Below are positions 1,764 through 16,507 of a DNA stretch of 18,067 nucleotides, piece by piece. Made by a program: the position numbers and the translations under genes. The stretch is from Gammaproteobacteria bacterium (GTDB taxonomy: Bacteria; Pseudomonadota; Gammaproteobacteria; Pseudomonadales; Halieaceae): the NCBI GenBank assembly GCA_029859085.1, contig JAOUDU010000006.1, positions 1 through 18,067 on the forward strand, in the 5' to 3' direction. The notes beneath the pieces are model-generated. The model was not told where the DNA came from. It worked only from the letters and a program-made list of their open reading frames with translations, and did not search any database. Numbering within the stretch: the stretch's first letter is position 1; every line of letters begins with the position of its first letter.

Positions 1764-1808
1764 ATGGAGGCCTTCCCGATAATGACTTTTGGTGGATTCT
1801 AGGGGAAA

Positions 1809-1848
1809 TTATTTTAAATGTAAAATAAAATATTTTAGCTTTAAACGA
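1809..1848. promoter_or_regulatory. MarR-type tandem operator between the monooxygenase and marR genes
   Basis: This AT-rich stretch sits in GC-rich surroundings. Half-sites are TATTTTA (1810-1816), TAAAATA (1821-1827), TATTTTA (1831-1837) and a degenerate TAAACGA (1842-1848). They form one perfect dyad TATTTTA-N4-TAAAATA (extended to 8-bp arms at 1809-1828) and a second weaker dyad with the same N4 spacing; dyad centres are 21 bp apart. It lies 46 bp upstream of the minus-strand monooxygenase ATG and 55 bp upstream of the marR ATG, right for divergent control and autoregulation. MarR dimers bind such palindromes, so assignment to the adjacent regulator is inference strengthened by the matching site before gcdH. 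Confidence 0.72.
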
Positions 1849-1903
1849 ATCTGCAAAGCGGGCAGAATATGGAGCACGACTACTTAGCAGGCCCGCCCGA
1901 ACG

Positions 1904-2392: not shown

Positions 2393-2400
2393 ATTCGGCC
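2383..2400. terminator. Hairpin across the marR stop codon, candidate bidirectional terminator
   Basis: GGCCGAAT (2383-2390), AA, ATTCGGCC (2393-2400) is a perfect inverted repeat; realistically a 7-bp stem with a TAAA loop. The loop carries the marR TAA stop. It lies between the convergent marR and gcdH genes, 34 bp from the gcdH stop. There is no T-tract on either side, so it may be a weak or assisted terminator or an mRNA 3'-end stabiliser. Confidence 0.4.
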
Positions 2401-2433
2401 ATCAGGGCGCCGCCGCTACTGTCATGATCCCCG

Positions 2434-3618
2434 TCAGAACGCCGGGATATCGGTCTGGGTCCGGCCCAGGATCAGCGCGTGAATATCGTGGGTGCCCTCG
2501 TAGGTGTTCACCACTTCCAGGTTCACCATGTGGCGCATCACCGGGTACTCGTCCGAGATCCCGTTGCCGCCCAGCATATCCCGCGCCTGGCGGGCAATTG
2601 CCAGCGACTTGCCACAGGAATTGCGTTTGATCAGGGAGATCAGCTCCGGCGCGATCTGGCCGGCGTCCATCAGCTGCCCCGCCCGGAAACAGCCCTGCAA
2701 GGCCAGGCTGATCTCGGTCTGCATGTCCGCCAGCTTGAGCTGTACCAGCTGGTTGGCCGCCAGCGGGCGCCCGAACTGCTTGCGGTCCATCACATAATCC
2801 CGGGCGGCATGCCAGCAGCTTTCCGCGGCCCCCAGGGCGCCCCAGGCGATACCGTAGCGGGCATTGTTGAGACAGCCGAAGGGGCCCTTCAGTCCCTCCA
2901 CGTCCGGCAGCAGCTGGTCCCCGGAAACGAATACCTCGTCCATCACAATCTCGCCGGTAATGGACGCCCGCAGTGCCAGCTTGCCCTCGATTTTCGGGGC
3001 GCTCAGTCCAGCCATGCCTTTTTCCAGGATAAACCCGCGGATCTTGCCGTCGTCGGTCTTGGCCCACACCACGAAGACATCGGCGATGGGGCTGTTGCTG
3101 ATCCACATCTTCGCGCCGCTGATTTTGTAGCCGCCATCCACGCTTCGCGCCCGGGTGACCATGGAGCCGGGGTCGGAGCCGTGGTCGGGTTCGGTCAGCC
3201 CGAAGCAGCCTATCCACTCCCCGGTGGCGAGCTTCGGCAGGTATTTTTCCCGCTGCTGCTCACTGCCGTAGGCGTAGATCGGGTACATCACCAGGGAGGA
3301 CTGTACGCTCATCATCGAGCGGTAGCCGGAGTCCACCCGCTCCACTTCCCGGGCGATCAGGCCATAGGAAATGTAGTCGACCCCCGGGCAGCCGTAGCCC
3401 TCGATGGTCGAACCCAGCAGGCCCAGCTCACCCATCTCGCGGAAAATCGCGGGGTCGGTCTCCTCCCTGCGAAAGGCCTCCTGTACCCGCGGCGCCAGTT
3501 TGCCCTGGGCGTACTGCCTGGCCGAATCGCGCACCATGCGCTGCTCGTCCGTGAGTTGCTGCTCCAGCAGGAAGGGGTCCTGCCAGTTCAGGTGCTGCCA
3601 GCGCTTGCCCTTTGCCAT
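2434..3618 (-). CDS. gcdH: Glutaryl-CoA dehydrogenase
   Basis: This 394-residue cytoplasmic FAD enzyme oxidises and decarboxylates glutaryl-CoA to crotonyl-CoA and CO2, passing electrons to electron-transfer flavoprotein. The acyl-CoA dehydrogenase fold is complete. Family-specific signatures are SGYRS with R100, matching the Arg that binds the substrate gamma-carboxylate in human [48 protein letters not shown]; and [13 protein letters not shown] with catalytic E374. These separate it from ordinary short- and medium-chain acyl-CoA dehydrogenases. Glutaryl-CoA arises from lysine and tryptophan and from some aromatic acyl-CoA routes. It is convergent with marR and has a TATTTTA-N4-TAAAATA operator 51 bp before its ATG, identical in plan to the one by marR, which ties it to the aromatic locus. 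The gap to the upstream same-strand gene is 122 bp, so it probably has its own promoter. Confidence 0.95.
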
Positions 3619-3668
3619 ATCAAGAACCTCGTCCGCCCGATCTCGTTGGGATGCAATCTAGCAGAAAA

Positions 3669-3686
3669 TATTTTAATAATAAAATA
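3669..3686. promoter_or_regulatory. MarR-type operator upstream of gcdH
   Basis: TATTTTA (3669-3675), ATAA, TAAAATA (3680-3686) is a perfect 7-4-7 palindrome, the same half-sites and spacing as the operator next to marR. Its near edge is 51 bp upstream of the gcdH ATG, where a promoter is expected. I found no second dyad here, unlike the marR site. Co-regulation by the MarR protein is inferred from identity of the sites. Confidence 0.7.
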
Positions 3687-3740
3687 ATTTCTTGCCGACT
3701 CAGCCGGCTCAATGGTTGATCCCACCGCATCCAGCCGGTA

Positions 3741-4235
3741 TCAGGCCCCGGCATCCGGCGCTGTGCGGCCGGCGAACACCACCCTCGCCACATGGTCGGA
3801 CAGATCGCTGACGTGGGTGGAGTTCACCTTGCACACCGTCGAGCTTATCAGCCAGCGGCCATCGACCTTCCGGTACTCGTCCTCGTAGTAGGCGCCCAGC
3901 TGGGTCACGCTGCGGGAGTTGGTGTCGATAAGGTGGTAGTAGAGCCCCCACACACCTTTGGCACTGGTTTCATCCAGCAGGTCGATACGCGGGTTCTGGG
4001 CGTGGTGCATCTCCACCATATGCTCGTGGCAGGCCATCTCGGTGAATACTGCCACCAGCGCATCCCGCTGTGTGAATACGCCGATGCGGCCATAGTCGAT
4101 ATGCACCGGTCCCTCCACAAAGCAGTCCCGCACCTTGTCCGGTTGCTTGGTATCGCAAAAGTAAAAATAGTCGTGCTTGAGGCGCTTGATCGCCTCGATA
4201 TCTTCCAGTGCCTGGATGCGGCTTGTTAAATCCAT
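3741..4235 (-). CDS. SnoaL-like (NTF2 superfamily) protein
   Basis: This 164-residue protein starts at ATG 4235 with MDLTSRIQALEDIEAIKRLKHDYFYFCD, the usual beginning of SnoaL-like cone-shaped alpha+beta-barrel proteins (an N-terminal helix pair, then a sheet lining a pocket). Later segments VHIDYG, MHHAQNPRIDLL and YYEDEYRKVDGRWLI fit the family. Members are small cyclases, isomerases, dehydratases or ligand binders, and the reaction cannot be assigned. The reading frame stays open upstream to 4343, but that extension is low-complexity and runs up to the dispersed repeat, so I prefer the internal start despite a weak ribosome site. It is on the same strand as gcdH and the SDR gene but 122 and 211 bp from them, so co-transcription is uncertain. 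No signal peptide is seen. Confidence 0.85.
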   Translation of the reverse strand: MDLTSRIQALEDIEAIKRLKHDYFYFCDTKQPDKVRDCFVEGPVHIDYGRIGVFTQRDALVAVFTEMACHEHMVEMHHAQNPRIDLLDETSAKGVWGLYYHLIDTNSRSVTQLGAYYEDEYRKVDGRWLISSTVCKVNSTHVSDLSDHVARVVFAGRTAPDAGA

Positions 4236-4333
4236 TGGTAGCCCCGAAGTCCAGACCCTGGACCCAAAATTCGGAAATGTATGCCTGGCGGGCTGGGCCA
4301 GGTTCCGGGCGGGGTATCGGCAGGCGGGACCGT

Positions 4334-4389
4334 CTGCAGCCATGGAAGGCTGCAGCGAGCCTACATGGATGTATTTACGGCGTGTCCCG
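4334..4389. repeat. Hairpin-bearing dispersed repeat element
   Basis: CTGCAGCC (4334-4341), ATGGAA, GGCTGCAG (4348-4355) forms an 8-bp hairpin. It runs into GCGAGCC (4355-4361) and then GTATTTACGGCGTGTCCCG (4371-4389). A shortened relative with CGAGCC followed by GTATTCACGGCGAGTCCCG occurs at 14339-14368. The hairpin plus GTATTyACGGCG tail resembles a non-coding repeat that I recall as scattered between genes in many gammaproteobacteria; that recollection was not checked. It lies 57 bp downstream of the SDR stop codon and may help end or stabilise that transcript. Confidence 0.5.
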
Positions 4390-4446
4390 ACTGTCGATAC
4401 CTCGCGTGGAGCCGTTTTACTGAGCCCAACACCAAGCAGAGTATTT

Positions 4447-5382
4447 TCATTTCGTACGGTGTTTAAGCACTTCCGGTGCCAGCGCCTGCAACTGCCGCCG
4501 GATACCGTCGCGCCAGTCCACCCGGGTCTCGCCGATCAGCTCGTGCATCCGGGTGGTATCTATACAAAGGCTGCCAAATGCGGTGGCGGTCTCGTTGAAC
4601 ACCGGCTCGAACCCGGTCAACTCGCCGATATAGGCGCACCACTGCTCGATACTGGCCGACTGCGAGCCGCCGAAGTTGGTAGTGGTGACCTGGGGGGTGG
4701 CGGCTCCCAGCAGGTAGGGGATCTTCTCGATGTAGTCATCCGCGTGGATCGGGTTGTAGCTGTTGGGCCGCTCCGGGTGAATATCGATGGGGATACCCTG
4801 CTGCATCATCAGCATGTGGTAGTACATCCAGCCCCCGTTATCGCCGTAGGGCACGCTGAGGCGGGCGATGGTGGTCGGTATACCCAGTTGCCTCGCGACA
4901 AAACGGCACACGGTTTCGGCGGCGATTTTAGAGATGCTGTAGGTGGGGAACATCGCGCGGTGGTTGTCGCCCAGGGGGTCGCTCTCCCGGCGCGGCTCAT
5001 GGCCGTTGTACTCATATACCGCGGTGGAGGAGATGTGGAGGAACGCGCGGGCCCCGCTGCAGCGGGTCATCAGGTTGCCCACACCCTCGCCGTTGGCGGC
5101 CAGGTCATAGTCGAAGTCACCGCTCTTGACCACGGCGAAATTCAGGACGTAATCGATATCCTGGGGTATCACCGCCAGTGCTGCCGGGTCCGCCAGGTCT
5201 GCCGCCAGCACCCTGGCCCCCAGCGCCTCGATCTTCTCCCGGTCAGCCTGCTTGCTGAACCGGGCCAGCGCGTAGACCTCAGCGGTCTTCGCATAATGCT
5301 CCACCACCGGCAGGGCTACCTGCCCGGTGGGGCCTGTTACCAGGATTTTGGCGCCGTTTAAATCGACAGGTGTCACAGCCAT
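4447..5382 (-). CDS. Extended short-chain dehydrogenase (NAD-dependent epimerase/dehydratase family)
   Basis: This 311-residue protein has an N-terminal Rossmann fold with the nucleotide-binding motif TGPTGQVA at about 16-23, and the catalytic set S118/S119 in HISST, with Y148 and K152 in YSISK. Later segments LSVPYGDNGGW and NPIHADDYIE are typical of extended SDRs such as sugar epimerases and dihydroflavonol- or cinnamoyl-CoA-reductase-like enzymes. It probably oxidises, reduces or epimerises a hydroxyl or carbonyl group with NAD(P)(H); the substrate is unknown. The start has GAGG seven bases before the ATG. The neighbouring SnoaL-like, YbjN-like and DHOD-like genes lie on the same strand, which hints at a shared but unidentified pathway. 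No membrane segment or signal peptide is seen. Confidence 0.88.
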   Translation of the reverse strand: MAVTPVDLNGAKILVTGPTGQVALPVVEHYAKTAEVYALARFSKQADREKIEALGARVLAADLADPAALAVIPQDIDYVLNFAVVKSGDFDYDLAANGEGVGNLMTRCSGARAFLHISSTAVYEYNGHEPRRESDPLGDNHRAMFPTYSISKIAAETVCRFVARQLGIPTTIARLSVPYGDNGGWMYYHMLMMQQGIPIDIHPERPNSYNPIHADDYIEKIPYLLGAATPQVTTTNFGGSQSASIEQWCAYIGELTGFEPVFNETATAFGSLCIDTTRMHELIGETRVDWRDGIRRQLQALAPEVLKHRTK

Positions 5383-5470
5383 TGGGTTGCCTCGCAGTTA
5401 TGTGCCCGGCTGCAGAGTGTACGCCAGAACCCGCGGGTTGAAGTCCCCCAAATGGGTGAAGCGCTCCGGG

Positions 5471-5854
5471 TCAGTGCAGGTCGGTGCGATATATCTCGCG
5501 CTCGTAGCGGTCTGCGGTTTCGGCGATGAAACCCATGGCGTAAGCCAGCTGGTCGTGGCAGTCGCCCTTGAGCAGGTAGGTATCCGTCATGACCAGGTCC
5601 TTGCCCAAAATGGCCAGGGCGCCGAAAGCCAGGCTGGCGTTGAGTCCCAGTACCCCGTTGAGCTGGATCTCCGACAGGGGAGCCACCGGGCCCACGGCGG
5701 TGGTAATCCGCAGTACCTCCTCGCCTTCAAACAGGAAGGTCGCAAAAGAGAGAACCTGGTGGCGCCCGCCGGGGATTACCAGCGTGGCCTGGTTACCATC
5801 ACACTGCCAGTCGTTGCGCAGGCAGACATCAACTACAACCTTGGGGCATTGCAT
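5471..5854 (-). CDS. Small conserved-looking protein, possibly YbjN/type III secretion chaperone-like fold
   Basis: This 127-residue protein has alternating beta segments (ATLVIPGGRHQVLSFATFLF, VLRITTAVGPV), then LNGVLGLNASLAFGALAILG and a C-terminal helix (DQLAYAMGFIAETADRYEREIY). The layout of N-terminal strands, a central LN..L motif and a long last helix ending in AD(R)YE recalls YbjN and CesT-type chaperone folds, which bind partner proteins. I do not recognise a specific family, so this is a fold guess. It is soluble with no signal peptide. It lies 91 bp downstream of the DHOD-like gene and 88 bp upstream of the SDR gene on the same strand. The ribosome site before the ATG is weak. Confidence 0.7.
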   Translation of the reverse strand: MQCPKVVVDVCLRNDWQCDGNQATLVIPGGRHQVLSFATFLFEGEEVLRITTAVGPVAPLSEIQLNGVLGLNASLAFGALAILGKDLVMTDTYLLKGDCHDQLAYAMGFIAETADRYEREIYRTDLH

Positions 5855-5945
5855 GAGGCGGTTATTCCATTGCCGTAAGCTGCCTGCAGTATAGCCGACG
5901 CCCCGCCGCGGGAGGAGTCCTTATCGGGTCAGGTGACCCTGCGCA

Positions 5946-6914
5946 CTACTTCATCCTGTACCCGCTCAGCATCCTCAGGTAATGCCCGCGGGCAAAGGCG
6001 CCGGGGTCGTCGCAGTTGCTCTGGCTCAATGAGCCGCGGATCTGGGTGAGCGAATCGAAACCTCGTTTGCCCAGCCACTTGACCGTGTTGTCCCTAATGC
6101 GCCTGAGGTGTCCCGGGCCGTTGGCGAGCAGTGTGCTGCCCAGGTAGGTCACGTCGGCGCCACACAACAGCATCTTCAGCGCATCCTCCGCAAAATGGAT
6201 GCCCCCGGTGGCGGCCAGGGAGAGCTGCACACGGCCGTGCAGGATCGCAATCCAGCGCATCGCAAGCAGCGAGTCCCCGGACGTGGACAGTTCCAGGGAG
6301 TCCGAGATCGACAGGCTCTCGAGGTCGATATTCGGCTGGTAAAAGCGATTGAACAGCGCCACCCCGGCGGCGCCACTGGCCTCCAGTGCGGTGACCATTT
6401 TGCCCAGCGAACTGAAGTAGGGCGACAGCTTGATCCCGACGGGTATATCCACCCTGCCGGCCAGCGCCGTGAAAATATCGAGCACCCGGCGTTCGACCGA
6501 CGCGGCGGACTCGGTGATGTCCGCCGCCACATAGTACACGTTGAGTTCCAGCGCCGGGGCACCCGCCGCCTCCAGTTCTGCTGCGAAGTCCACCCAGTCA
6601 CCCGCGGATGAGCCGTTCAGCGAGGGGATAACCGGAATATCCAGTGCTGCCCGCAGCTGCCTGAACTGCGCCAGGTACTCCTCGCGGCTGGCCATGGTGT
6701 GGGTGCCGCCGAGGATGTCGCCACCGGCGATATTGCCGATGTCGGCGCCCCGGTTGGCCTCGATCTCTTCCTGGAACAGGGAGTGCATCACCAGCGCGCC
6801 GGCGCCGGCATCCTCCAGTTGCCTCGCGGTATCCAGGTTTTTTGACAGTGGAGTGGAGGACGCCACAAACGGGTTTTCCAGCTCCAGCCCGAGATACCGG
6901 CTACGAAGATCCAC
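5946..6914 (-). CDS. Dihydroorotate dehydrogenase-like FMN protein
   Basis: This 322-residue TIM barrel resembles the DHOD superfamily but belongs to the DHOD-like branch of unknown reaction. It opens with MDLRSRYLGLELENPF. FMN contacts are suggested by K162 in GIKLSPYFSS, by LAATGGI at about 233-239 and by YLGSTLLANG. In true PyrD the orotate site carries an N-x-S-S/C-P-N motif; here the matching place reads LNVYYV, and no base Cys or Ser is evident, so orotate synthesis is unlikely. Homologues are often found beside pyruvate:ferredoxin oxidoreductase genes; none is visible here. The start is GTG, supported by AGGGAG seven to eight bases upstream. It is divergent from the nucleotide-carrier gene, with 161 bp between them. 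Confidence 0.88.
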   Translation of the reverse strand: MDLRSRYLGLELENPFVASSTPLSKNLDTARQLEDAGAGALVMHSLFQEEIEANRGADIGNIAGGDILGGTHTMASREEYLAQFRQLRAALDIPVIPSLNGSSAGDWVDFAAELEAAGAPALELNVYYVAADITESAASVERRVLDIFTALAGRVDIPVGIKLSPYFSSLGKMVTALEASGAAGVALFNRFYQPNIDLESLSISDSLELSTSGDSLLAMRWIAILHGRVQLSLAATGGIHFAEDALKMLLCGADVTYLGSTLLANGPGHLRRIRDNTVKWLGKRGFDSLTQIRGSLSQSNCDDPGAFARGHYLRMLSGYRMK

Positions 6915-7075
6915 GGCCTGACTCCCTCGTTACCATACGCTACAGTCCACCCTGCAAGCACCTCCGCCCATGTTACCTGCCTGAATACTAGGGCAAGTCA
7001 GTGCCCCGACCATTGATGTAGAACAAGTGAAGACGCCCTTCCCTTGGTTATGCTAACGAAGATGATGGACCGGCT
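6915..7075. other. Divergent intergenic region between the DHOD-like and carrier genes
   Basis: These 161 bases separate two divergent starts, so both promoters should lie here. TATGCT at 7049-7054 could be a -10 for the carrier gene but has no convincing -35 partner. No palindrome, riboswitch or small gene stands out. Confidence 0.4.
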
Positions 7076-8692
7076 ATGACAACTGACGCACTGATCCGCA
7101 ATCGATGGGAGCGGTCCCTCGGCCTGTTTGCCAGGTTGCGGCCGGGGGAAGGGCTGGCCGTGCTCTATTTCATGAGCTACGGCTTCCTGGTCATGTTTTC
7201 CTATTACATGCTGAAGACCCTGCGGGAGCCGCTGCTGCTCAGCAAGGCGACGGCTGAGACCAAGAGCTACGCCTACGCGGTTATCGCGCTGGTACTGCTG
7301 TTTGTCGTGCCCGCCTACGGGGCGCTGTACCGGCGCCTGCCAAAGCGACAACTGAGTTTATGGGTGAGCGCCATTCTGCTGGCGGTGCAGGGCGTATTTT
7401 TCCTGCTGAGCCTGGCGGGATTGAGGATCGGTTTCGCCTACTATGTCTGGGTGGGGATATTCGGTGTGTTGATTACCGCCCAGTTCTGGGCTTTCGCCGC
7501 GGACAGCTTCAACCTGAAAGCCGGCAAGCGCCTGTTCCCGTTGATCATGATCGGAGTCTCGCTGGGGGGGTTGGCGGGGCCGGCGATTGCGGGTCAGCTG
7601 TTCCAGCTGCTGGGCGCACGCGACCTCATGCTGGTCATCCTGGTATTTATCGCCCTCACCCTGCCAATGTCCGGCCTGGCCCGGGGCGCGGTGCCCGCAC
7701 TCTCGCGCAGCTTCCTGGCGGTCGCGGAGCCGGTGAAAAGCCCGCTGCTGGGCGGATTTTCGCTGGTCAGGCGCAACCGCTACCTGCTGCTGATCGCGAT
7801 GATGATCGTGCTCTTGAACTGGGTCAATACCACCGGCGAGTACCTGCTCGCGGAGCTGGTCATTCGCCACGCGGACTCACTGATCGCCCGGGATCCCAGT
7901 CTCGACAAGGGCAACCTGATAGCTGCCTTCTACGGCAATTTTTTCTCCATCGTCAACGCGCTTTCGCTGTTCCTGCAACTGTTCATCGTGTCGCGGGTGA
8001 TCCGGTGGATCGGGGTGCGGGGCGCCGTGCTCGTGCTGCCCGTGATTGCGCTGGTGGGGTATGGCCTGATGGTGTTCATGCCGATCTTCAGCATGATCAG
8101 GATGGTAAAAATGGCGGAGAACTCAACCGACTACTCGCTGATGAATACCGCGCGTCACGCACTGTTCCTGCCGCTGAGTGCGGCTGAAAAATACCAGTCG
8201 AAAATCGCTATCGACGCGTTTTTCTGGCGTTTTGGCGACCTGGTGCAGGCGCTGGCGGTTTATGCCGGGCTGCACCTGTTTGGATTCCAGTCGCAACAGT
8301 TTGCGGTCCTGAATATGGTACTTGCCCTGGTGTGGCTGGCACTGGCGGTGCAGATCGGGCGGCGCTATGTGGACCTGGAACAGGGCGCTACCAGCGGCGA
8401 GCCTCCGCGCCTGCTGCTGGCCCTGCGGCCGCATCCGGCGCCGCCCGGCGTCGCGCTGGCCTACCGCCTCCCCGCCAACCTGTTCCACTGCGAACCCGGC
8501 GATATACTGCGGGTATCGGTGCGCGAGGTCGATGCCGATGCGCTTCCTGCCTGGCTGCATTTTGACGCCGAATCCCTGGCCTTTACCGGGGTGCCACCGG
8601 AGGATACCGACGCCAATACCTGGCTGACCGTGCGGGCGTCCAACCTGGAAGGGCAGTGGGTCGAGACCCGGCTGGGGTTTATACATTTGTGA
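7076..8692 (+). CDS. ATP/ADP translocase-like (NTT-type) carrier with C-terminal cadherin-like domain
   Basis: This 538-residue inner-membrane protein has hydrophobic segments at about 26-46, 65-85, 93-114, 120-141, 153-176, 184-200, 236-260, 283-308, 316-338, 386-404 and 409-427, plus a polar helix near 350-368. That suggests the 12-helix MFS fold of NTT nucleotide carriers. Family-like features include SYYMLKTLREPLLL (42-55), FWAFAADSF then GKRLFPLIMIGVSLGGLAGP, and NTARHALFLPLS. NTT proteins exchange ATP for ADP or import nucleotides; the substrate here is unproven. Residues 460-538 form a cadherin-like (CADG/He_PIG) beta domain: YRLPANLF, PAWLHFD (491-497), FTGVP (503-507), LTVRASNLEGQW. 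Such domains normally work outside the cytoplasm, whereas 12 helices would place this one inside. The next gene, a secreted kinase-like protein, starts 8 nt downstream, implying one transcript and a shared task. Confidence 0.83.
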   Translation: MTTDALIRNRWERSLGLFARLRPGEGLAVLYFMSYGFLVMFSYYMLKTLREPLLLSKATAETKSYAYAVIALVLLFVVPAYGALYRRLPKRQLSLWVSAILLAVQGVFFLLSLAGLRIGFAYYVWVGIFGVLITAQFWAFAADSFNLKAGKRLFPLIMIGVSLGGLAGPAIAGQLFQLLGARDLMLVILVFIALTLPMSGLARGAVPALSRSFLAVAEPVKSPLLGGFSLVRRNRYLLLIAMMIVLLNWVNTTGEYLLAELVIRHADSLIARDPSLDKGNLIAAFYGNFFSIVNALSLFLQLFIVSRVIRWIGVRGAVLVLPVIALVGYGLMVFMPIFSMIRMVKMAENSTDYSLMNTARHALFLPLSAAEKYQSKIAIDAFFWRFGDLVQALAVYAGLHLFGFQSQQFAVLNMVLALVWLALAVQIGRRYVDLEQGATSGEPPRLLLALRPHPAPPGVALAYRLPANLFHCEPGDILRVSVREVDADALPAWLHFDAESLAFTGVPPEDTDANTWLTVRASNLEGQWVETRLGFIHL

Positions 8693-8700
8693 GGGCACCC

Positions 8701-9825
8701 ATGCTTGCACGCATAGTCACGATTTTGCTGGTGTTGCCGATTGGCGGGCTTGCCGCGACTGACGCCGTCGACCCCAATACACCCGCAATCCCCGATGCTT
8801 CGCTTTTCAGTGAAAGTGGCGTGCTGGAGCTTTCCCTGTCGGTGGACTTCGATGCCCTGTGCCGGCCGAACGAGGTTGAGGATTGCAATTACTCACCCGC
8901 GATTTTGCGCCTCGGGACCCCGGGCGGCGTCGACAGGAACCTCCCGGTAGAGCTCAGGGTGCGCGGTGGCTGGCGGGCCAGGAGGGATCACTGTGAGGTG
9001 CCGCCCTTGTTTGTTCGCTTTGCGCCCGGGGGCGCGGCGGGAACACCCTTTGCCGGCCAGGACCTGCTGCCGCTGACCACCCACTGCCGCAGGAAAAAGG
9101 AGCGGGGACTGGCGGGCAGCGCCGGGGCCGATTACGAGCAATACGTGCTCAAGGAGTATCTCGGTTACCGGCTGTACAACCTGGTGACCGATCGCAGCCT
9201 GCGGGTGCGCCTGGTCAGGATCAATTACAGCAACCCGGCCCAAGGGGGGGAGACCGTCACCCGCTATGCATTTTTTACCGAGCACTTTGACTCGATGGCC
9301 GCCCGCCTGGGATTCAGTCGGCTGCCCGGCGACAGTTTTGATCACGAAAAAATAGACCTGCCCGACTTTGACCGGTTGGCGCTGTTCAATTTCATGATCG
9401 GCAATACCGACTGGTCCGTGGTGCGCCAGCGCAATATCGTCCTGCTTGCGGATGGCCGGGGCCGGCAATACCCCGTTCCGTTTGACCTGGATATGTCCGG
9501 GCTGGTGGATGCGGAGTACGGCGGGGTCTCACCGCGGCTGGATTTTCGCGACCCCCGCCACCGCCACTACCTGGGGTTCTGCCATCCCGGGCCGGATTAC
9601 GACCGGCTATTCGGCGATTTCGAGAGCAGTAAAGATGCGATGCTGGAGCTGGTGCGCGAGATCCCCGGCATGGACAGGACCACGCGGAAGGTGGGCCGGC
9701 GCTACCTCGATAAATTTTTCGATATTATTGAATCTCCCGCGGATCGCCAGCAGGACATTATTGGCGCATGCCAGCCATGGCCGCCGTCCCCGGTGGATCA
9801 TACGACACCGCCGGACCCGGCATGA
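8701..9825 (+). CDS. Secreted CotH-like atypical protein kinase candidate
   Basis: This 374-residue protein starts at ATG 8701, with GAGGG five bases before it and directly after the carrier stop. Residues 1-19 form a signal peptide (MLARIVTILLVLPIGGLAA). About 150-195 (KEYLGYRLYNLVTDRSLRVRLV, then the TRYAFFTEH strand) matches the core of CotH kinases. The catalytic-looking region is LFNFMIGNTDWSVVRQRN: NTDW at 235-238 with candidate catalytic D237 and N245, then PVPFDLDMSG with candidate metal ligands D262 and D264. CotH proteins are Fam20/HipA-related kinases that phosphorylate secreted or coat proteins. Six cysteines (54, 62, 98, 129, 294, 357) allow disulphides in the periplasm. The adjacent carrier could provide nucleotide, and the convergent phosphatase could reverse the reaction. 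Kinase activity is inferred; it could instead be a binding relative that lost activity. Confidence 0.75.
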   Translation: MLARIVTILLVLPIGGLAATDAVDPNTPAIPDASLFSESGVLELSLSVDFDALCRPNEVEDCNYSPAILRLGTPGGVDRNLPVELRVRGGWRARRDHCEVPPLFVRFAPGGAAGTPFAGQDLLPLTTHCRRKKERGLAGSAGADYEQYVLKEYLGYRLYNLVTDRSLRVRLVRINYSNPAQGGETVTRYAFFTEHFDSMAARLGFSRLPGDSFDHEKIDLPDFDRLALFNFMIGNTDWSVVRQRNIVLLADGRGRQYPVPFDLDMSGLVDAEYGGVSPRLDFRDPRHRHYLGFCHPGPDYDRLFGDFESSKDAMLELVREIPGMDRTTRKVGRRYLDKFFDIIESPADRQQDIIGACQPWPPSPVDHTTPPDPA

Positions 9826-11809
9826 GGGCCAGCAGCGCGTCCCGGCGCGCCAGCAGCGCCGTTATCTGCGCGCCGTCGAGCAGCGGGCCGAGTGTCCCCC
9901 GCAGCGCCGGTTCATCCAGGGCCAGCAGCGCGGCCCGCACTGTCGGCGGCAGCTTGAGTTGGAGTTTTTCCGCGGAGCCCGGCAGGGTATGCGCCGTGCT
10001 GAAAGCGTCGCCGAAGTGCGAGGCCTGCAGGTTCCAGAACGGCTGGGTGTAACCGAACGATGTGCCGGGCCGATCGTTTTCGCCGACCAGCAGGTCGAAT
10101 ACGTCCAGCAGCTGTTGTTGCGCGGGCAAGGGGCACCAGTCGTCCGTGCCTGTTCCCTGGCGCAGGCGCCGGGACTCGGTGAGGAAGTGGCGATAACCCA
10201 GTTGTAAAACCCCCGGCCTGCCGTCGATGTCCCGCGCGACGGAAATGGGCACAAGGTCGAATCCCAGCATGGTATCCAGCAGGTAGGCCGCCTGTTCCCG
10301 CCGCTGTGTGCCCTGTTTGTCCGCGGGGAAGAACAGGGCGTGGACCTTCGATCCCCGATAGGCCAGCACGATATGTGAGGTGCTTTCCAGCCAGCCCTGC
10401 TCGATCTCGAGTATTTTCCCGTTGCGCAGCGCATCGCCCAACTGCTCGCTGCTTAACGGGTACTCGCGGTTGCCGCCATCACCCAGGGGCTCCACCCGTT
10501 CGGTGGGGTACAGATACTGCACCATGGTGCCCGACTTATCGATGACCAGGGCGGCGGGACGGCCCCGGTACATCGCGACCAGCATACCGGTGTCGAGCAT
10601 GATCAGCCGGTCGCCGCGCAGCAGGTGGACCCGTTTGTCCGTGGTCGGGGTATGGCCGACCACCACGCGTTTCGCTTCCAGGTTGTCCAGGGCAGCCTGT
10701 AGCACCGGTATTTCCAGGACATCCTTGCAGCGCACCGAGCCGCGGTACCACAGCGGGCCGGAGGTACCAAACAGCGGAGAGCTCTCCAGTGCGAGCAGTT
10801 CCCTGAGAGCGGCGACCACCGCGGGTGGCGGGCTGCGCTGGCTGTCCGTCGCGCTGCCCCGCTCGCGGGCACAGGCCGTGCGCTCCTGGCGCGGGCAGCT
10901 GGAAGGGTCCGCTATCCGCAGGGCTTTTTGTGCCAGGGTGAGATTGGTCTCCACACCTGCCTGGGTCAACACGCCGGCATCGATGAGCTGGCGCCACAAC
11001 TCGAAAAAACGCTCGAGGTCCGCGAGGAATTCCAGGTTGAGCTGATCCAGTGGTGCGCTCGCGGTCACGGGCGGCAGGCCGCCATGGACGAAAACGGTAT
11101 CGTTTATCACGATCAGCGCGGGTAATGACAGCAGCCAGCGGCCGTACTTGCCCCCGGGCGCGAAGGCGGCGCGATGCCCGAAGTAGCCTGGCGGGTACAG
11201 CTGCTCGAAATCCTGGTGGGTCTGCGGGTCGCGCTCGACCGCGGTGACGCCACCGCCGAGGAAGCTCAGTGCCACGGCCTCGCTGCGCTGCGCAACGAAC
11301 TGCGCGTATGCCTGCTCGCGCTGCTCGCCGGACTCCATATCAGTGAACGCCGCGAATTCCGCCGTGGAGACATAGCGCAGGTCTCCCACCAGGTTCATCG
11401 TCTCGTGATTGCCGGCCACCACGTGAACGCGGCCGCCCTGTTCCGGCGCCTCCTGTTGCAGGCGCATCAGCAGGTCCATCACCTTGCGCGATTCCGGGCC
11501 CCGGTCGAGCAGGTCCCCCAGGCTGACCAGGTGGGTTGCGCCCCCGCTCCAGTGCAGCGAGGCGTCCACCACGCCGGCCGCCTGCAACAAACCGGTCAAA
11601 TCCGCGTATGCCCCGTGGATATCGGGGACGACCACGATGCGCTCAACCCCGGACCAGCGCCAGGGACCGAGCTGCCTGGCGGTTTGGGTCGAGGCCAGGG
11701 CAGCCTGGCAGGACAGGAACGCAGTTATCACTAGCAGGGCTGCAAGCAGCGCATCCCTGGTGGAATCACCCAAAGCTGGTCGGCACCTGGTCATTATTGC
11801 TGGGGACAT
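9758..11809 (-). CDS. Secreted PPP-family phosphatase fused to a degenerate kinase-like C-terminal domain
   Basis: This 683-residue protein has a signal peptide ending near ALA-ST at 38-41. Residues 55-430 form a calcineurin-like phosphatase with all PPP metal motifs: DIHG (63-66), GDLLDRG (98-104), GNHE (133-136), VHGG (241-244) and GHT (385-387). This most resembles Shewanella-like (Shelph) phosphatases, which remove phosphate from Ser/Thr or Tyr. Residues 450-683 are additional: ALFFPADK, REQAAYLLDTMLGFDLVP (E505), LQLGYRHF, FDLLVGENDRPGTSF (D579) and ASHFGDAF resemble, in order, the FKP, aC-Glu, catalytic Asp-Arg and metal-binding segments of HipA/Fam20-like kinases. The FKP Lys and the metal Asp are changed (F494, H598), so this domain is probably a pseudokinase or sensor. 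ATG 11809 is preferred over 11794 because AGGG precedes it. The last 68 bp overlap the facing kinase gene. Confidence 0.85.
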   Translation of the reverse strand: MSPAIMTRCRPALGDSTRDALLAALLVITAFLSCQAALASTQTARQLGPWRWSGVERIVVVPDIHGAYADLTGLLQAAGVVDASLHWSGGATHLVSLGDLLDRGPESRKVMDLLMRLQQEAPEQGGRVHVVAGNHETMNLVGDLRYVSTAEFAAFTDMESGEQREQAYAQFVAQRSEAVALSFLGGGVTAVERDPQTHQDFEQLYPPGYFGHRAAFAPGGKYGRWLLSLPALIVINDTVFVHGGLPPVTASAPLDQLNLEFLADLERFFELWRQLIDAGVLTQAGVETNLTLAQKALRIADPSSCPRQERTACARERGSATDSQRSPPPAVVAALRELLALESSPLFGTSGPLWYRGSVRCKDVLEIPVLQAALDNLEAKRVVVGHTPTTDKRVHLLRGDRLIMLDTGMLVAMYRGRPAALVIDKSGTMVQYLYPTERVEPLGDGGNREYPLSSEQLGDALRNGKILEIEQGWLESTSHIVLAYRGSKVHALFFPADKQGTQRREQAAYLLDTMLGFDLVPISVARDIDGRPGVLQLGYRHFLTESRRLRQGTGTDDWCPLPAQQQLLDVFDLLVGENDRPGTSFGYTQPFWNLQASHFGDAFSTAHTLPGSAEKLQLKLPPTVRAALLALDEPALRGTLGPLLDGAQITALLARRDALLALMPGPAVSYDPPGTAAMAGMRQ

Positions 11810-11988
11810 CCGGACCCTGGCTACTTGTGTTGGCAGCCAGGGCAGTGGTGATCCCTGGCGGTACCTTCGGCTGTCGACTGTCGGCTCTTTCCCCGGGGGA
11901 GCCTGCCGCGTCGTTGTCAGCGCAGTCTAACCTGCAAATTGATTTTTTTGCACTTACACTTCCGTTTGGGAGCGCAGTGTGGGCGGCG

Positions 11989-12010
11989 GGTCCGGTCAAC
12001 GATCCGGACC
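11989..12010. repeat. Inverted repeat, candidate operator or hairpin
   Basis: GGTCCGG (11989-11995), an 8-base centre, and CCGGACC (12004-12010) form a perfect inverted repeat about 157 bp upstream of the CoA-transferase start and 180 bp upstream of the phosphatase start. It could be a regulator site or a short RNA hairpin; no T-tract follows, so a terminator is less likely. Confidence 0.35.
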
Positions 12011-12109
12011 AGGTCGACGGGTAAATAAACAGAGTTGCCAGCACCACGTGATTATCGAGCATAATGTGCCCTGACCGGTCGATTGCAGCGGTTATTGCGG
12101 GCCTATCTA

Positions 12110-12137
12110 TTGTGCCTGAATCATATATCGTTATATT
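12110..12137 (+). promoter_or_regulatory. Candidate sigma70 promoter of the CoA-transferase gene
   Basis: TTGTGC (12110-12115) and TATATT (12132-12137) are separated by 16 bases, close to -35 and -10 consensus, and would start transcription about 20-25 bases before the coding start. It lies in a short AT-rich stretch in GC-rich surroundings. An ATATA-TCGT-TATAT dyad overlaps the -10 region. Confidence 0.35.
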
Positions 12138-12166
12138 TCAATTGCCGTAACCGAGGTGAGAAAAAG

Positions 12167-13369
12167 ATGAGCGAGATGGAGCGGCCCCTGGATGGCCTGC
12201 GGGTGATAGAAATGGGTCAGCTGCTGGCGGGACCTTTTACCGGCACCATCCTGGCTTACTTTGGCGCCGAGGTGATCAAGGTGGAGCCCCCGGGTGGCGA
12301 TCCCGTGCGCGGCTGGAGGGAGGTGCGCGACGGCACGTCCCTGTGGTACCGCAGCCTGGGGCGGAACAAGAAAAGCGTTACCCTCGACCTGAAGTCCGGG
12401 GAGGGCAGGGAACTGGCGCTGAAGCTGCTGGAAACCGCCGACGTGGTGGTTGAAAATTTTCGCCCCGGCCTGATGGAGAGCTGGGGCATGGGCCCGGCCG
12501 AGCTCAAGCAGCGCAACCCGGGCCTGGTCTACGCCCGTATCTCCGGCTACGGCCAGACCGGCCCCTATGCCAGCAAGCCGGGCTACGCCTCGGTCACCGA
12601 GGGCTTCGGCGGGTTCCGCTATATCAACGGCGAGCCGGGCAAGGCACCGGTGCGCCCCAATATCAGCATGGGCGATACCTTGTCAGCGATTCACGCCGCC
12701 CTGGGGATCGCGCTGGCGCTGATCCAGCGTGCGAAGCCGGGATCCGGTGAGGGGCAGGTGGTCGACGTGGCGCTGTATGAATCCGTGTTCAACCTGATGG
12801 AGGGAATTGTGCCCGAGTACGATGGCGCGGGTGTTGTGCGCGAGCCCTCCGGCACCACGGTGACCGGGATTGTGCCCACCAATACCTACCGCTGTGACGA
12901 CGGCAAGTACGTGGTCATTGGCGGCAATGGTGACTCGATCTTCAAGCGCCTGATGATCGCCGCCGGTCGCTCGGACATGGCGGAGAATCCGGAGATGGCG
13001 AATAACGCGGGCCGGATAGTGCATGAGGCAGAGATTGACCAGGCCCTGGACCTGTGGTGCGCCGCGCACTCCTCGACCCATATCATCAACACCCTGGAAG
13101 AGGCGCGGGTGCCGGTAGGCCCGATCTACAGCGTGGAGGATATGATGGTCGATCCCCAATACCAGGCCAGGGGACTGTTCGAGAGCGTGGAGATCGACGG
13201 CCGGCCACTCAAGATCCCGGCCATAATGCCGAAACTCGACGCCACCCCGGGCCGGACCGACTGGCCGGGAATGGCCATTGGCAGCCATAATGACGAGGTG
13301 CTGCGAGGCATTCTCCAGCTCGACGACGCCCGGATCGAGCGCCTGCGCGCCGATGGAGTGATAAGCTGA
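12167..13369 (+). CDS. Class III (CaiB/BaiF) CoA transferase
   Basis: This 400-residue cytoplasmic enzyme moves CoA from a donor such as succinyl-CoA to a carboxylic acid through aspartyl anhydride and thioester intermediates. The family core is clear: PLDGLRVIEMGQLLAGPF, FGAEVIKVEPPGGDP, RNKKSVTLDLK, VVVENFRPG, ISGYGQTGPY, and SMGD with D170 in the place of the catalytic Asp of formyl-CoA transferase. The start at ATG 12167 is fixed by GAGGTGA seven bases upstream; the frame is open further back but lacks family sequence. The HMG-CoA-lyase-family gene follows 30 bp later. CoA transferase III plus this lyase family is the pair that activates and cleaves citramalate in Chloroflexus, and a similar pair could act on hydroxymethylglutarate. 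The acceptor acid here is not known. Confidence 0.93.
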   Translation: MSEMERPLDGLRVIEMGQLLAGPFTGTILAYFGAEVIKVEPPGGDPVRGWREVRDGTSLWYRSLGRNKKSVTLDLKSGEGRELALKLLETADVVVENFRPGLMESWGMGPAELKQRNPGLVYARISGYGQTGPYASKPGYASVTEGFGGFRYINGEPGKAPVRPNISMGDTLSAIHAALGIALALIQRAKPGSGEGQVVDVALYESVFNLMEGIVPEYDGAGVVREPSGTTVTGIVPTNTYRCDDGKYVVIGGNGDSIFKRLMIAAGRSDMAENPEMANNAGRIVHEAEIDQALDLWCAAHSSTHIINTLEEARVPVGPIYSVEDMMVDPQYQARGLFESVEIDGRPLKIPAIMPKLDATPGRTDWPGMAIGSHNDEVLRGILQLDDARIERLRADGVIS

Positions 13370-13399
13370 TGCAGACAACCACCCGCCCCGGTGAATGAT

Positions 13400-14311
13400 A
13401 TGAGCCAGCAGATTGTCATTACCGATGTCGGTCCCCGGGACGGCCTCCAGAACCAGCCGCGTATCCTCGTCCTGGAACAACGCCTGCAACTTATCCGGGC
13501 GATCGCAGACGCCGGGGTCAGCAGTATTGAGGTCGGCAGCTTTGTCTCCCCCAGAGCCGTGCCGGCGATGGCGGGCACGGATGCGCTCGTGGCTGCGCTG
13601 CCGCAGGGCGGTACCGTCCACTACACGGCCCTGATTCCCAACATGAGAGGCTACGAGCTGGCCCGGGCCGCCGGCGCCCGCTCCGTCACCATGGTGCTCT
13701 ACGCCAGCGAGGGCATGGCACAGAAAAACGTCAATATGAGCATGGACCAGGCCGAGTCGGTCACCGCCGATATCCTCGGCGCCGCCCGGGCGGATGGCAT
13801 CGAGGTCATCGCCGTTATCGCCGTGGCCTTCGCCTGCCCCTTCGACGGACCCACCGACCCCGGCGTGGTGCGCGCGGTTGCCGACAAGTTTTTGACTATG
13901 GGCGCGGACCAGGTGGTCATTGCGGACACGATAGGCGCCGGCAACCCGCAACAGGTTCGCAGCCTGACGGCGGACCTGGTGCGCGACCACGGCGCCGCCC
14001 GCCTTGGCTGCCATTTCCACGACACCCGCGCCCTTGGCCTGGCCAATGTATTCGCCGCTGTCGAATCGGGCATCCGCCGCTTCGACGCCTCCATCGCGGG
14101 CCTGGGCGGTTGTCCTTTCGCCCCTGGCGCCAGCGGTAACGTGGCGACCGAGGACGTGGCGATGATGCTGGAGCAGATGGGTTTTGACACTGGCATCGAC
14201 CTGGATGCGCTGCTGCGCGCGTCGGATCTCGCCGAAGAATTGACCGGCACCGCGCCGGGCGGGCGCTCCAAGCCCTGGCTGAAGCCGTGGCTGGCGAAGC
14301 GGGCCGGGTGA
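13400..14311 (+). CDS. HMG-CoA lyase-family enzyme (DRE-TIM metallolyase)
   Basis: This 303-residue TIM-barrel lyase cleaves a 3-hydroxyacyl-CoA branched at C3, such as HMG-CoA to acetyl-CoA and acetoacetate, or R-citramalyl-CoA to acetyl-CoA and pyruvate. Visible residues: R13 and D14 in VGPRDGLQNQ (catalytic Arg and metal Asp), E45 in IEVGSFVSP, metal His H205 and H207 in CHFHDTR, and C238 in the family signature GLGGCPFAPGASGN. The motif HFHDTRALG differs from the HDTYGQA of mitochondrial HMG-CoA lyase, so the substrate may differ. ATG 13400 is preferred, with GGTGA five bases before it; a GTG at 13391 in the same frame is the alternative. It lies 30 bp after the CoA-transferase gene, so the acid activated there is probably cleaved here. 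Confidence 0.92.
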   Translation: MSQQIVITDVGPRDGLQNQPRILVLEQRLQLIRAIADAGVSSIEVGSFVSPRAVPAMAGTDALVAALPQGGTVHYTALIPNMRGYELARAAGARSVTMVLYASEGMAQKNVNMSMDQAESVTADILGAARADGIEVIAVIAVAFACPFDGPTDPGVVRAVADKFLTMGADQVVIADTIGAGNPQQVRSLTADLVRDHGAARLGCHFHDTRALGLANVFAAVESGIRRFDASIAGLGGCPFAPGASGNVATEDVAMMLEQMGFDTGIDLDALLRASDLAEELTGTAPGGRSKPWLKPWLAKRAG

Positions 14312-14338
14312 TTTTTATTGGCTTGCTTCGAGGTGGTA

Positions 14339-14368
14339 TCGAGCCGGGTATTCACGGCGAGTCCCGGC
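14339..14368. repeat. Short relative of the dispersed repeat, with inverted repeat
   Basis: CGAGCC is followed by GTATTCACGGCGAGTCCCG, matching 17 of 19 bases of the tail of the element at 4334-4389 but lacking its 5' hairpin and a few bases after CGAGCC. GCCGGG (14343-14348) and CCCGGC (14363-14368) form a 6-bp stem with a 14-base loop. It sits in the 122-bp gap between the lyase and hyuA genes and may influence read-through. Confidence 0.4.
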
Positions 14369-14433
14369 ATGCCACAGTTGGTTAAAGGCCGGTCTTTTAG
14401 CAGAGCAAAGCATGAGACAACCAGGAGAGCACA

Positions 14434-16503
14434 ATGAGTTACAGGCTGGGCGTGGACGTAGGGGGAACCTTCACCGATCTCCTGCTGATCAACGAAGAGA
14501 CCGGTGAGACCCATACCGCCAAGGTACCCTCCACGCCGGAGGATTCATCCGTGGGTGTGCTCAACGGCATCGCGCGTATCTGCGACGAGTCCGGTATCGA
14601 TCCGGTGGGTATCAACCGGGTGATGCACGGCACCACGGTGGCGACCAATGCGGTGCTCACCGGCAAGGGCGCACGGGTGGGCCTGGTGACCACCAGCGGT
14701 TACGAGGATACGCTGCAGGTGGCCCGCTCATTCTGCCCCGGCGGCCTGGGCGGCTGGGTCAGCTTCGTGAAGAAACCCCTGCTGGCGCCGCTGGAGCTGA
14801 CCATAGGCGCGAGTGAGCGCATCGGCGCCGACGGGGTCGTGGTGCGCGGCCTGGACGAGGACAAACTGCGGGCCGACCTGAAGGCGCTGCATGCGAAGGG
14901 CAGGGTACAGGCCCTGACGATCTGCTTTATCAACGCCTATATCAACGGCGAGCACGAGCGCCGGGCCCGGGATATCGCCGCGCAGATTTTCACCGACACC
15001 CCCATTTCCATATCCAGCGAGGTGGTGCCGGAAATGCAGGAGTACGAGCGCACCGAGACCACCGTGGTCAACTCCTATGTGCGCCCGGAAGTGGCCCGCT
15101 ATGTGCGCAACCTGCAGGCGGCGCTGGAGGAGCGGATGGGCGGCAATACCCAGCTCTCCATCCTGCGCTCCGACGGCGGCCTCGCCTCGGCCCGGGGGGC
15201 GGCGGAATCCCCGGTCAACCTGCTGATGTCAGGCCCCGCTGGCGGCGTGTCCGGCGCCATCTATTTCTGCAGCCGGGCGGGCTTTGACAATATCCTCACC
15301 TTCGATATGGGCGGCACCTCCACCGACGTGGCCCTGATCCAGAATTCCCGCGCCCGGGTGCGGCGCGAGACCATCGTCGGCGACGTGCGGGTGCGGGCGC
15401 CGTCGGTGGACGTGCGCACCGTGGGGGCCGGCGGCGGCTCCATCGCCTTCGTGCCGGAACTGACGAAAGCGTTGCGGGTCGGCCCGGAGTCCGCCGGTGC
15501 CGTGCCGGGGCCCGCCTGTTATATGAAGGGCGGCGAACTGCCGACCGTCTGCGACGCCAACGTGGTGCTCGGTTACCTGCCCTCGGACGTGCAACTGGGC
15601 GGCAAGATGCAGATCAATCGCGACGCCTCGGTCACCGCCGTGCAGAAAGTGGCGGACGCGATGGGCATCGGGCTTATGGAGGCCGCGGAGGGTATCTGCA
15701 AGATCGTCAACGAATCGATGTTCGGCGCCCTGCGGCTGGTGTCGGTGGAGCAGGGCTACGACCCGAGGGACTTCGCCCTGGTGGGCTTCGGCGGCGCCGG
15801 TCCCCTGCACGCCAATGCGATGGGCATACTGACCGAGGCCTGGCCGGTCATCATCCCCCCCGGCCCGGGTGTGCTCTGCGCCTATGGCGATGCCACCACC
15901 CAGGTACAGGACGAGGCGGCCCGCACCTACCTGACCATGGCCGGGGCCTTGAGCGATGCCCGGTTGCTGGCGGACCTGCAGGAGCTGCAGCAGCGGGCCG
16001 GGGAGTCACTGCTGGCCGATGGCATTCCGGTGCAGGACCACGAGGTGAGCTACCAGGCGGACCTGCGCTACGCCGGCCAGGCCTTCCAGATCACGGTGGA
16101 TTTTACCGAGGAGCAACTGAAAGCCCGGGGAGTGGCCCTGCTGACCGAGCAGTTCGACAGCGAGCACGAGCAGTTGTTCACGTTCAAGCTGGGGGATGGT
16201 CACGAGATCCTGATGATCCGCGCCCTGGTAAAGGCGCGCAGCAAAGGTATCGCCGAGCTCAAGACAGGCAAGGCGGGCACCACCCTCGAACAGTGTCGCA
16301 TCCACGACAGCCGTTTTTACCACGAGGGCCAGTGGCACGAGATTTTCATCTATGACCGCAATAAATTGCACGAGGGCCTGGTAGTGCCCGGCCCGGCGAT
16401 CATCGGTGAAATGGATTCAACCACCGTGGTGCTGCCCGGTTTCGATGCCCGGGTCGACGCGATCGGCAACCTGCTGATCAATCCGGCGAAGCAAGGAGGT
16501 TAA
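14434..16503 (+). CDS. hyuA: HyuA-type hydantoinase/oxoprolinase/ketone carboxylase ATPase subunit
   Basis: This 689-residue subunit uses ATP, through an ASKHA-type fold, to phosphorylate an amide or enol oxygen; the HyuA/HyuB pair then opens a ring (hydantoin, 5-oxoproline, lactam) or carboxylates a ketone. Complete family motifs are GVDVGGTFTD (6-15, first phosphate loop), MHGTTVATNAVL, SGPAGGVSGA, FDMGGTSTDVAL (about 290-301, second phosphate loop), GAGGGSIA, then GPESAGAVPGPACY and CDANVVLGYL. The start at 14434 has AGGAGAG just upstream. HyuB follows, its ribosome site lying inside the last codons of this gene, so the two are made together. The upstream CoA transferase and lyase suggest the product is a carboxylic acid that is then activated and cleaved. 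Acetone/acetophenone carboxylase, caprolactamase and oxoprolinase relatives all share these motifs, so the substrate stays open. Confidence 0.93.
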   Translation: MSYRLGVDVGGTFTDLLLINEETGETHTAKVPSTPEDSSVGVLNGIARICDESGIDPVGINRVMHGTTVATNAVLTGKGARVGLVTTSGYEDTLQVARSFCPGGLGGWVSFVKKPLLAPLELTIGASERIGADGVVVRGLDEDKLRADLKALHAKGRVQALTICFINAYINGEHERRARDIAAQIFTDTPISISSEVVPEMQEYERTETTVVNSYVRPEVARYVRNLQAALEERMGGNTQLSILRSDGGLASARGAAESPVNLLMSGPAGGVSGAIYFCSRAGFDNILTFDMGGTSTDVALIQNSRARVRRETIVGDVRVRAPSVDVRTVGAGGGSIAFVPELTKALRVGPESAGAVPGPACYMKGGELPTVCDANVVLGYLPSDVQLGGKMQINRDASVTAVQKVADAMGIGLMEAAEGICKIVNESMFGALRLVSVEQGYDPRDFALVGFGGAGPLHANAMGILTEAWPVIIPPGPGVLCAYGDATTQVQDEAARTYLTMAGALSDARLLADLQELQQRAGESLLADGIPVQDHEVSYQADLRYAGQAFQITVDFTEEQLKARGVALLTEQFDSEHEQLFTFKLGDGHEILMIRALVKARSKGIAELKTGKAGTTLEQCRIHDSRFYHEGQWHEIFIYDRNKLHEGLVVPGPAIIGEMDSTTVVLPGFDARVDAIGNLLINPAKQGG
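16493..16500 (+). promoter_or_regulatory. Strong ribosome binding site of hyuB inside the hyuA end
   Basis: AAGGAGGT is a full anti-16S match, seven bases before the hyuB ATG, and encodes the last residues of hyuA next to its TAA stop. It implies strong, coupled translation of the second subunit. Confidence 0.75.
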
Positions 16504-16507
16504 GCAC

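Follow-up and report, generated by a model that had tools for sequence, protein, structure and literature searches.

A CotH-fold kinase, a Shewanella-like phosphatase with a degenerate kinase tail and an NTT-related carrier in a gammaproteobacterium: a possible extracytoplasmic phosphorylation module

CotH of Bacillus is a mother-cell kinase whose target is the spore coat. The pseudokinase Fam20A binds and serves Fam20C, and nucleotide import by NTT carriers is known from intracellular bacteria. We analyzed contig JAOUDU010000006.1 of a gammaproteobacterium of the Halieaceae, positions 1 to 18,067 (hereafter the window; contig C753 of G000, a fragmented assembly of 771 contigs that is 90% complete), in which three neighboring genes encode an NTT-related carrier, a kinase of CotH fold, and, facing them, a Shewanella-like phosphatase (Shelph) of PPP type with a kinase-like C-terminal tail. 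Shelphs are described as having PPP motifs, an LDTG motif, and an insert between GNHE and HGG (PMC535813), and the active residues of CotH kinases as corresponding to D166, N171, and D184 of PKA (PMC12189002).

The initial annotation of the window had read an NTT-type carrier, a CotH-like gene, and a facing PPP phosphatase, and all three assignments are borne out by profile or fold matches. It took them for a periplasmic set that writes and erases a phosphate mark; the pairing of kinase and phosphatase, the folds, and the motifs agree with this, but ATP/ADP exchange by the carrier is doubtful. Its premise of CotH and Fam20 kinases acting outside the cytosol fits CotH only loosely, the site of action there being the spore coat. 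The neighborhood of the three genes is more than chance. Each part has a known relative, and the set as a whole would be a variant of extracytoplasmic phosphorylation; no description of the three-gene set or of a fusion of a Shelph to a Fam20-type domain was found in searches of open PMC papers. That the three genes are an extracytoplasmic phosphorylation module, in which the carrier brings the nucleotide of the kinase, has in our judgment an even chance of being correct.

The kinase and the two-domain phosphatase

The CotH-like identity of the kinase, already proposed in the initial annotation, is borne out by its CotH fold and by catalytic-type residues that are invariant in 30 aligned rows (Table 1). 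Residues of the PKA D166, N171, and D184 type are present, matched by motif order rather than by residue superposition. No Pfam or NCBIfam family, CotH included, matched at E ≤ 0.01, and relaxing the search to E ≤ 10 gave HEPN_AbiA_CTD (0.065) as the sole match. Signal peptides had been proposed for the kinase and the phosphatase, and hydrophobic N-terminal stretches are seen in both, that of the kinase reading by eye as a signal peptide and that of the phosphatase lying at residues 20-38.

The phosphatase matches Metallophos (7.1e-12) and carries the metal and catalytic motifs DIHG, GDLLDRG, GNHE, and HGG, the first reading PDIHG and not GDxHG. With a profile of 17 sequences, the nearest solved structure is the Shewanella PPP (E 4.7e-54 vs 9.4e-8 for the next kind). 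The kinase-like tail, also noted earlier, is real by homology: the tail of a relative has a Fam20/PI4KII-like fold and matches Pfam HipA_2 (1.5e-5; 24.9 bits, below the cut-off of 27). In place of NxDRxxxN and a metal Asp, the tail of the window reads ENDRPGTSFGY and HFGD, with the first Asn changed to Glu, the catalytic Asn to Ser, and the metal Asp to His, while the Asp of the DR motif is retained. The motifs are intact in 29 of the 30 long-form phosphatases (those with the tail) of the window's family, and an intact loop motif is present in none of the 120 nearest homologs listed for the window's phosphatase.

A second active kinase in the window is unlikely, because its tail is degenerate, the catalytic Asn and the metal Asp being gone. 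That the domain persists despite this degeneration argues that it binds or regulates something. We regard the tail as probably a pseudokinase of Fam20-type descent which, by analogy with Fam20A and Fam20C, was probably retained because it binds either its partner kinase or the substrate. The idea that the tail and the stand-alone kinase are one family, first fused and then free, is unsupported (hhalign probability 0.6%; best folds differ).

Kinase and phosphatase as neighbors in other genomes

Among 140 genomes of the window's family, the CotH-fold kinase was found in 19, the long phosphatase in 30, and the short phosphatase in 13. The short-form count leaves aside a contig-edge fragment in G140, a 90-aa piece resembling the tail in G026, and low-scoring matches to other PPP proteins. 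The kinase adjoins the short phosphatase in 13/13 cases and the long phosphatase with an intact tail in 0/29, a kinase being encoded elsewhere in five of those genomes. The lone exception among the 30 long forms is the window itself, in which the tail is degenerate and the kinase is adjacent. Outside the family, four long phosphatases were found by the phosphatase (one each in G491 and G683, two in G326), all with degenerate tails. A kinase is adjacent to or near three of them, with a 226-aa open reading frame (ORF) between the two in G491; the fourth, on contig C35 of G326, has no kinase nearby, and G326 has kinases elsewhere. In this phosphatase-found set, an adjacent kinase thus accompanies 0/29 intact vs 4/5 degenerate tails (Fisher p 1e-4, kinship ignored). 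On a quick tree of 66 phosphatase domains (without that of locus L311), the intact tails are one clade, and the window and L217 sit on long branches, their placement being unsure. The pattern of tail state and kinase adjacency is consistent, but the events behind it are few, as discussed below.

In named genomes, 244 stretches encode a relative of the kinase, of which the best 80 were kept together with at most 8 kb of flanking sequence. At 23 of these 80 loci the phosphatase directly adjoins the kinase (11 long forms), and at one more it is a few genes off (long form). The DR-motif Asp is lost in all 12 long forms at kinase loci; L217 retains the Asn and L223 the metal Asp. The two genes of the 23 adjacent pairs are divergent in 11, convergent in 7, and codirectional in 5, and the paired loci span Gammaproteobacteria, Alphaproteobacteria, Gemmatimonadota, and Bacteroidota. 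In five relatives with the window's convergent layout the two genes also overlap, by 17-24 nt (68 nt in the window). If all three genes are expected to stay neighbors in relatives, this is found only in part: kinase and phosphatase do so across families, phyla, and three orientations, but often without the carrier.

Among L149-L155, which hold the closest named relatives of the kinase, a neighbor of the malate synthase group is present in 6/7 cases and one of the M14 peptidase group in 5/7 (one representative of each identified). Not every neighbor of the kinase is a partner, since some large ones at Bacteroidota loci are housekeeping enzymes (transketolase, IspG). Another phosphatase may stand in the place of the Shelph: the kinase follows a large metallophosphoesterase in Marinifilum (L192:6080-7951) and a PafA-type alkaline phosphatase at a second Bacteroidota locus (L191:5910-7529). 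At 17/80 loci (e.g., L170:6236-7000 and L183:10027-10680) a homolog of a DUF4956 membrane protein is encoded no more than 6 kb from the kinase; it sometimes lies directly upstream of the phosphatase and is a candidate further part or substrate (Pfam-checked in L085 and L170; a match in L311 was left out, its ORF running antisense over the phosphatase). Gene clusters of CotH, VTC, and DUF4956 are known. A link to VTC and polyphosphate through DUF4956 was considered and dropped, as the representative neighbors scanned held no VTC family and no relevant paper was found. At nine loci (e.g., L197:8967-9932) a protein of ~322 aa adjoins the kinase or separates it from the DUF4956 gene; the one representative scanned matched no Pfam or NCBIfam family.

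For close relatives of the three genes, protein lists without genomic context were available, and members were tied by an identical size of their longest contig. Such identities were found for kinase and carrier (6177, 9302, 8991, 8935, and 5963), kinase and phosphatase (11813, 4465, 3421, 3832, 29604, and 3893), and carrier and phosphatase (64716, 6679, 8378, and 8552). Over the full lists the signal is weak (4-6 matches vs a mean of ~1.2 and a maximum of 4-7 in shifted controls); among the nearest homologs on contigs of at least 3 kb, a restriction chosen after the first result, there are 4, 6, and 3 matches vs ~0.1 expected. On the contig of 9302, the N-terminal extension MGRDPSGIFTL of kinase P0017 appears to be the end WAETRLGFLHL of carrier P0143 read in another frame. 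These matches point to shared contigs for close relatives of each pair of the three genes.

The carrier and its partners

The carrier matches the Pfam family of TLC ATP/ADP transporters (28.1 bits, cut-off 21), the best stretch covering only residues 345-431, and a carrier profile built from 15 rows finds the solved NTT 9j3n across the transmembrane part (E 1e-28). It misses the cut-off of the NCBIfam exchanger family TIGR00769 (21 vs 387 bits). At the residues that we take to be essential in NTTs, K155, E245, E385, and K527 of AtNTT1, the window's carrier and its clade-1 relatives read K/R, G, E, and D (D for E385 in one member), with E245→G and K527→D in all clade-1 carriers in which the position is aligned; the assignment at K155 is alignment-dependent, clear in one alignment and shifted in another. 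In a sister group the four positions hold K or E (depending on the alignment), D, D, and K, and in generic paralogs x, S, Y, and D, or nearly so. The residue check does not uphold a plain ATP/ADP exchanger: with two of the four residues replaced, such exchange is doubtful, and the cargo and exchange mode of the carrier may therefore differ. The C-terminal Ig-like domain of the carrier, of a normally extracellular type, would face the cytoplasm if both ends of the protein lie inside and its helices are even in number.

Counted at E ≤ 1e-90 in the 140 family genomes, the carrier group (clade-1 or sister type) occurs in 30, of which 28 have a long phosphatase (Fisher p 8e-25, kinship ignored); the other two, G012 and G082, are 66% and 86% complete. 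In 18 of the 28 shared genomes the two genes adjoin, a count that takes in the window with its one intervening gene; the adjacent carrier is of sister type in G018, G021, G158, and G159. Many of the adjacent cases sit in one syntenic block, with the window and G002 outside it. Within that block, the gene beside the long phosphatase (L074:10683-12821) encodes a fusion of a sodium:dicarboxylate symporter with an extracellular solute-binding domain.

In an order survey of 312 genomes, clade-1 carriers were found outside the family in four (G039, G743, G583, and G589), none of which has a long phosphatase. In three of these, from three families (G039, G743, and G589), the carrier adjoins, or is one gene from, a dikinase-like protein of 976-998 aa with a signal peptide (by eye), a PEP-utilizer phosphohistidine domain, and a C-terminal PPDK_N ATP-binding domain, whose gene clusters with beta-lactamase-family proteins (Table 1). 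Three genomes of one genus of the window's family (G079, G080, and G019) have a sister-type carrier beside the dikinase, the gene being cut by the contig end in G019. Five members share the invariant stretches G-N-P-L-S-H539 and R745-S-D-T-N-x-E-D; the ATP domain matches PEP synthases, and the domain order is that of glucan water dikinases. When 43 genomes chosen from those surveyed were searched (22 with the carrier and 21 controls; G082 not included), the dikinase was found in 11/22 carrier genomes vs 0/21 controls, and either it or a long phosphatase was present in 22/22; in three of these controls the CotH-fold kinase and a short phosphatase occur without such a carrier. The dikinase lies away from the carrier in G012, G018, G021, G024, and G583, and is absent from the window and its genome. 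A secreted-looking metallophosphoesterase adjoins the carrier in G743 and G003, and none of these partners was seen at six loci of generic carriers (L319, L320, L336-L338, and L342). A link of the carrier group to secreted ATP-type phosphotransferases is thus supported at two kinds of locus.

Explanations and comparison with known systems

Computation shows the families, the folds, which motifs are conserved or lost, and the conserved neighborhoods; that the proteins are secreted and catalytic, that the carrier moves nucleotide and in which direction, and what the pseudokinase does are inferred, as follows. The secreted CotH-fold kinase would phosphorylate a periplasmic or cell-surface target, and the secreted Shelph-type phosphatase would take the phosphate off again. 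The degenerate Fam20-type tail would hold or tune the partner kinase, as Fam20A does for Fam20C, and the NTT-related carrier would bring in the nucleotide used by the kinase. An extracytoplasmic phosphate mark written by the kinase and erased by the phosphatase seems to us quite likely; that the carrier supplies the nucleotide seems to us about evenly balanced.

Several observations weigh against this explanation. The kinase belongs to CotH by fold only, with a weak signal from Foldseek alone and no Pfam match. The death of the tail is likely rather than certain, because one catalytic Asp remains, and independent events are few, because two changes of tail state suffice on the tree. No such phosphatase is found at 56/80 kinase loci, L149-L155 included. 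The carrier has two of its four presumed essential residues replaced, and the long phosphatase occurs without it in two genomes (G064 and G143). In 10 of the 28 shared genomes carrier and phosphatase are apart or on separate contigs, and the scanned neighbors of such separated carriers are an MscS channel, TPR, acyl-CoA dehydrogenase, Dus, penicillin amidase, and a TPP enzyme. The carrier group is in none of the 13 short-form genomes, which have kinase and phosphatase, and at 0/80 kinase loci within the stretch fetched, one of which has a generic carrier. The notion that the carrier is tied to the kinase wherever the kinase occurs was accordingly rejected. None of the counts given here is adjusted for kinship.

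These last absences, together with the residue replacements shared by every aligned clade-1 carrier and the missed exchanger cut-off, are what would be expected if kinase and phosphatase are a true extracytoplasmic pair but the carrier is a mere neighbor or moves another cargo (a phosphorylated sugar, a lipid part, or a reaction product), the ATP of the kinase coming by leakage or another route. We hold this to be less likely than not: the carrier co-occurs with the kinase-bearing phosphatase in 28/30 cases, the same carrier group lies beside an unrelated secreted ATP-binding dikinase, and the sister type, with D, D, and K at E245, E385, and K527, is found at both kinds of locus. A scavenging route would have the phosphatase strip extracellular nucleotides or other phosphoesters, the carrier take up what results, and the CotH-fold protein serve for binding or act on the nucleotide itself. 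It would suit the secreted look of the Shelph and metallophosphatase partners and the import of nucleotides by NTT carriers of intracellular bacteria; it leaves unexplained the invariant catalytic-type residues of the kinase and its presence beside the phosphatase only where the fused tail is degenerate or missing, not intact, and we consider it improbable. Inherited synteny without joint function, to which the shared gene block and the few tail events could point, is slightly less probable still, as kinase and phosphatase adjoin in three orientations and several phyla, the window and G002 lie outside the block, and the carrier-phosphatase co-occurrence persists in the 10 genomes in which the genes are non-adjacent.

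If the role of the carrier as nucleotide supplier were shown, the module would be more than a variant of extracytoplasmic phosphorylation, and nucleotide brought across the membrane would help to answer how enzymes in an ATP-poor space are fueled. The occurrence of the carrier group alongside secreted ATP-type enzymes of two unrelated kinds makes that question directly testable. More tentatively, and with somewhat less than an even chance, this NTT-like branch in free-living gammaproteobacteria may be a general periplasmic nucleotide supply for different secreted phosphotransferases, with the bifunctional Shelph/Fam20-type protein, the CotH kinase and Shelph/pseudokinase of the window, and the glucan-water-dikinase-like enzyme as clients; such bacteria would possess a compartment for extracytoplasmic phosphorylation that is Golgi-like and has a dedicated ATP feed. 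A fused Fam20-type kinase in some genomes and a separate CotH-type kinase in others, beside the same phosphatase, make a natural experiment on extracytoplasmic phosphorylation, and this kinase swap also bears on why degenerate kinase domains persist.

Table 1. Features of the window and of carrier-dikinase loci in other genomes
Feature	Position	Strand	Remarks
NTT/TLC-like carrier with C-terminal Ig-like (He_PIG) domain	7076..8692	+	538 aa; profile matches
He_PIG / dystroglycan-like Ig domain, carrier residues 453-526	8432..8653	+	Pfam PF05345, 2.1e-6; dystroglycan chains matched
Secreted CotH-fold kinase	8701..9825	+	374 aa; residues counted from ATG 8701, the start also in database entry P0001
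Putative Sec signal peptide of kinase	8701..8757	+	MLARIVTILLVLPIGGLAA; hydrophobic stretch, judged by eye
Catalytic-loop-like motif N235-x-D237-x-S239...N245	9403..9435	+	invariant columns, 30-row alignment
Metal-site-like motif D262-x-D264	9484..9492	+	invariant columns, 30-row alignment
Secreted Shewanella-like PPP phosphatase (Shelph), degenerate kinase tail	9758..11809	-	683 aa
PPP phosphatase domain, ~residues 57-430	10520..11641	-	DxHG, GDxxDRG, GNHE, HGG, GHTP, LDTG
Degenerate Fam20-type kinase domain, residues 490-663	9821..10342	-	catalytic Asn and metal Asp lost, DR Asp kept
Antiparallel overlap, 3' ends of kinase and phosphatase	9758..9825	.	68 nt
Carrier, dikinase, and beta-lactamase-family clusters	L315:1452-8198, L316:5325-13397, L318:926-7507
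Carrier, dikinase, and beta-lactamase-family clusters	L339:732-7267, L340:6017-12512

The spacer between carrier and kinase is 8 nt, as the initial annotation stated, since the carrier stop ends at 8692 and the ATG lies at 8701. Unrelated metabolic genes flank the three on the left (acyl-CoA dehydrogenase, SnoaL, epimerase, and a DHO_dh-family protein) and on the right (CoA-transferase III, HMGL-like, and hydantoinase); the row at 12083-16503 (+), with CoA-transferase III, HMGL-like, and caprolactamase/hydantoinase-like genes, is likely a degradation operon separate from the finding.

Like the glucan water dikinase and PEP synthase-type enzymes, the dikinase has a phosphohistidine domain followed by a C-terminal PPDK_N domain; unlike them, it reads with a signal peptide (by eye) and lies near carriers. 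The window's carrier is homologous to NTT/TLC carriers (AtNTT1 9j3j, 9j3n) along the transmembrane part and keeps E385 and a basic residue near K155, but differs from AtNTT1 in E245→G, K527→D, an extra Ig domain, and its secreted-enzyme neighbors. Compared with the spore-coat kinase CotH of Bacillus (5jd9/5jda), the window's kinase has no sequence-level match and no Pfam CotH match, and it is a Gram-negative protein with a signal peptide, invariant cysteines, and a phosphatase and a carrier as partners. The phosphatase resembles the Shelphs (SLP; 1v73/2z72) in its PPP motifs, LDTG, and the insert between GNHE and HGG, but adds a C-terminal kinase-fold domain, a fusion not seen in the part of PMC535813 available to us. 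Compared with the Fam20C/Fam20A pair, the Fam20-type domain of the window is fused to a phosphatase, and its active partner is of CotH type, a different kinase family.

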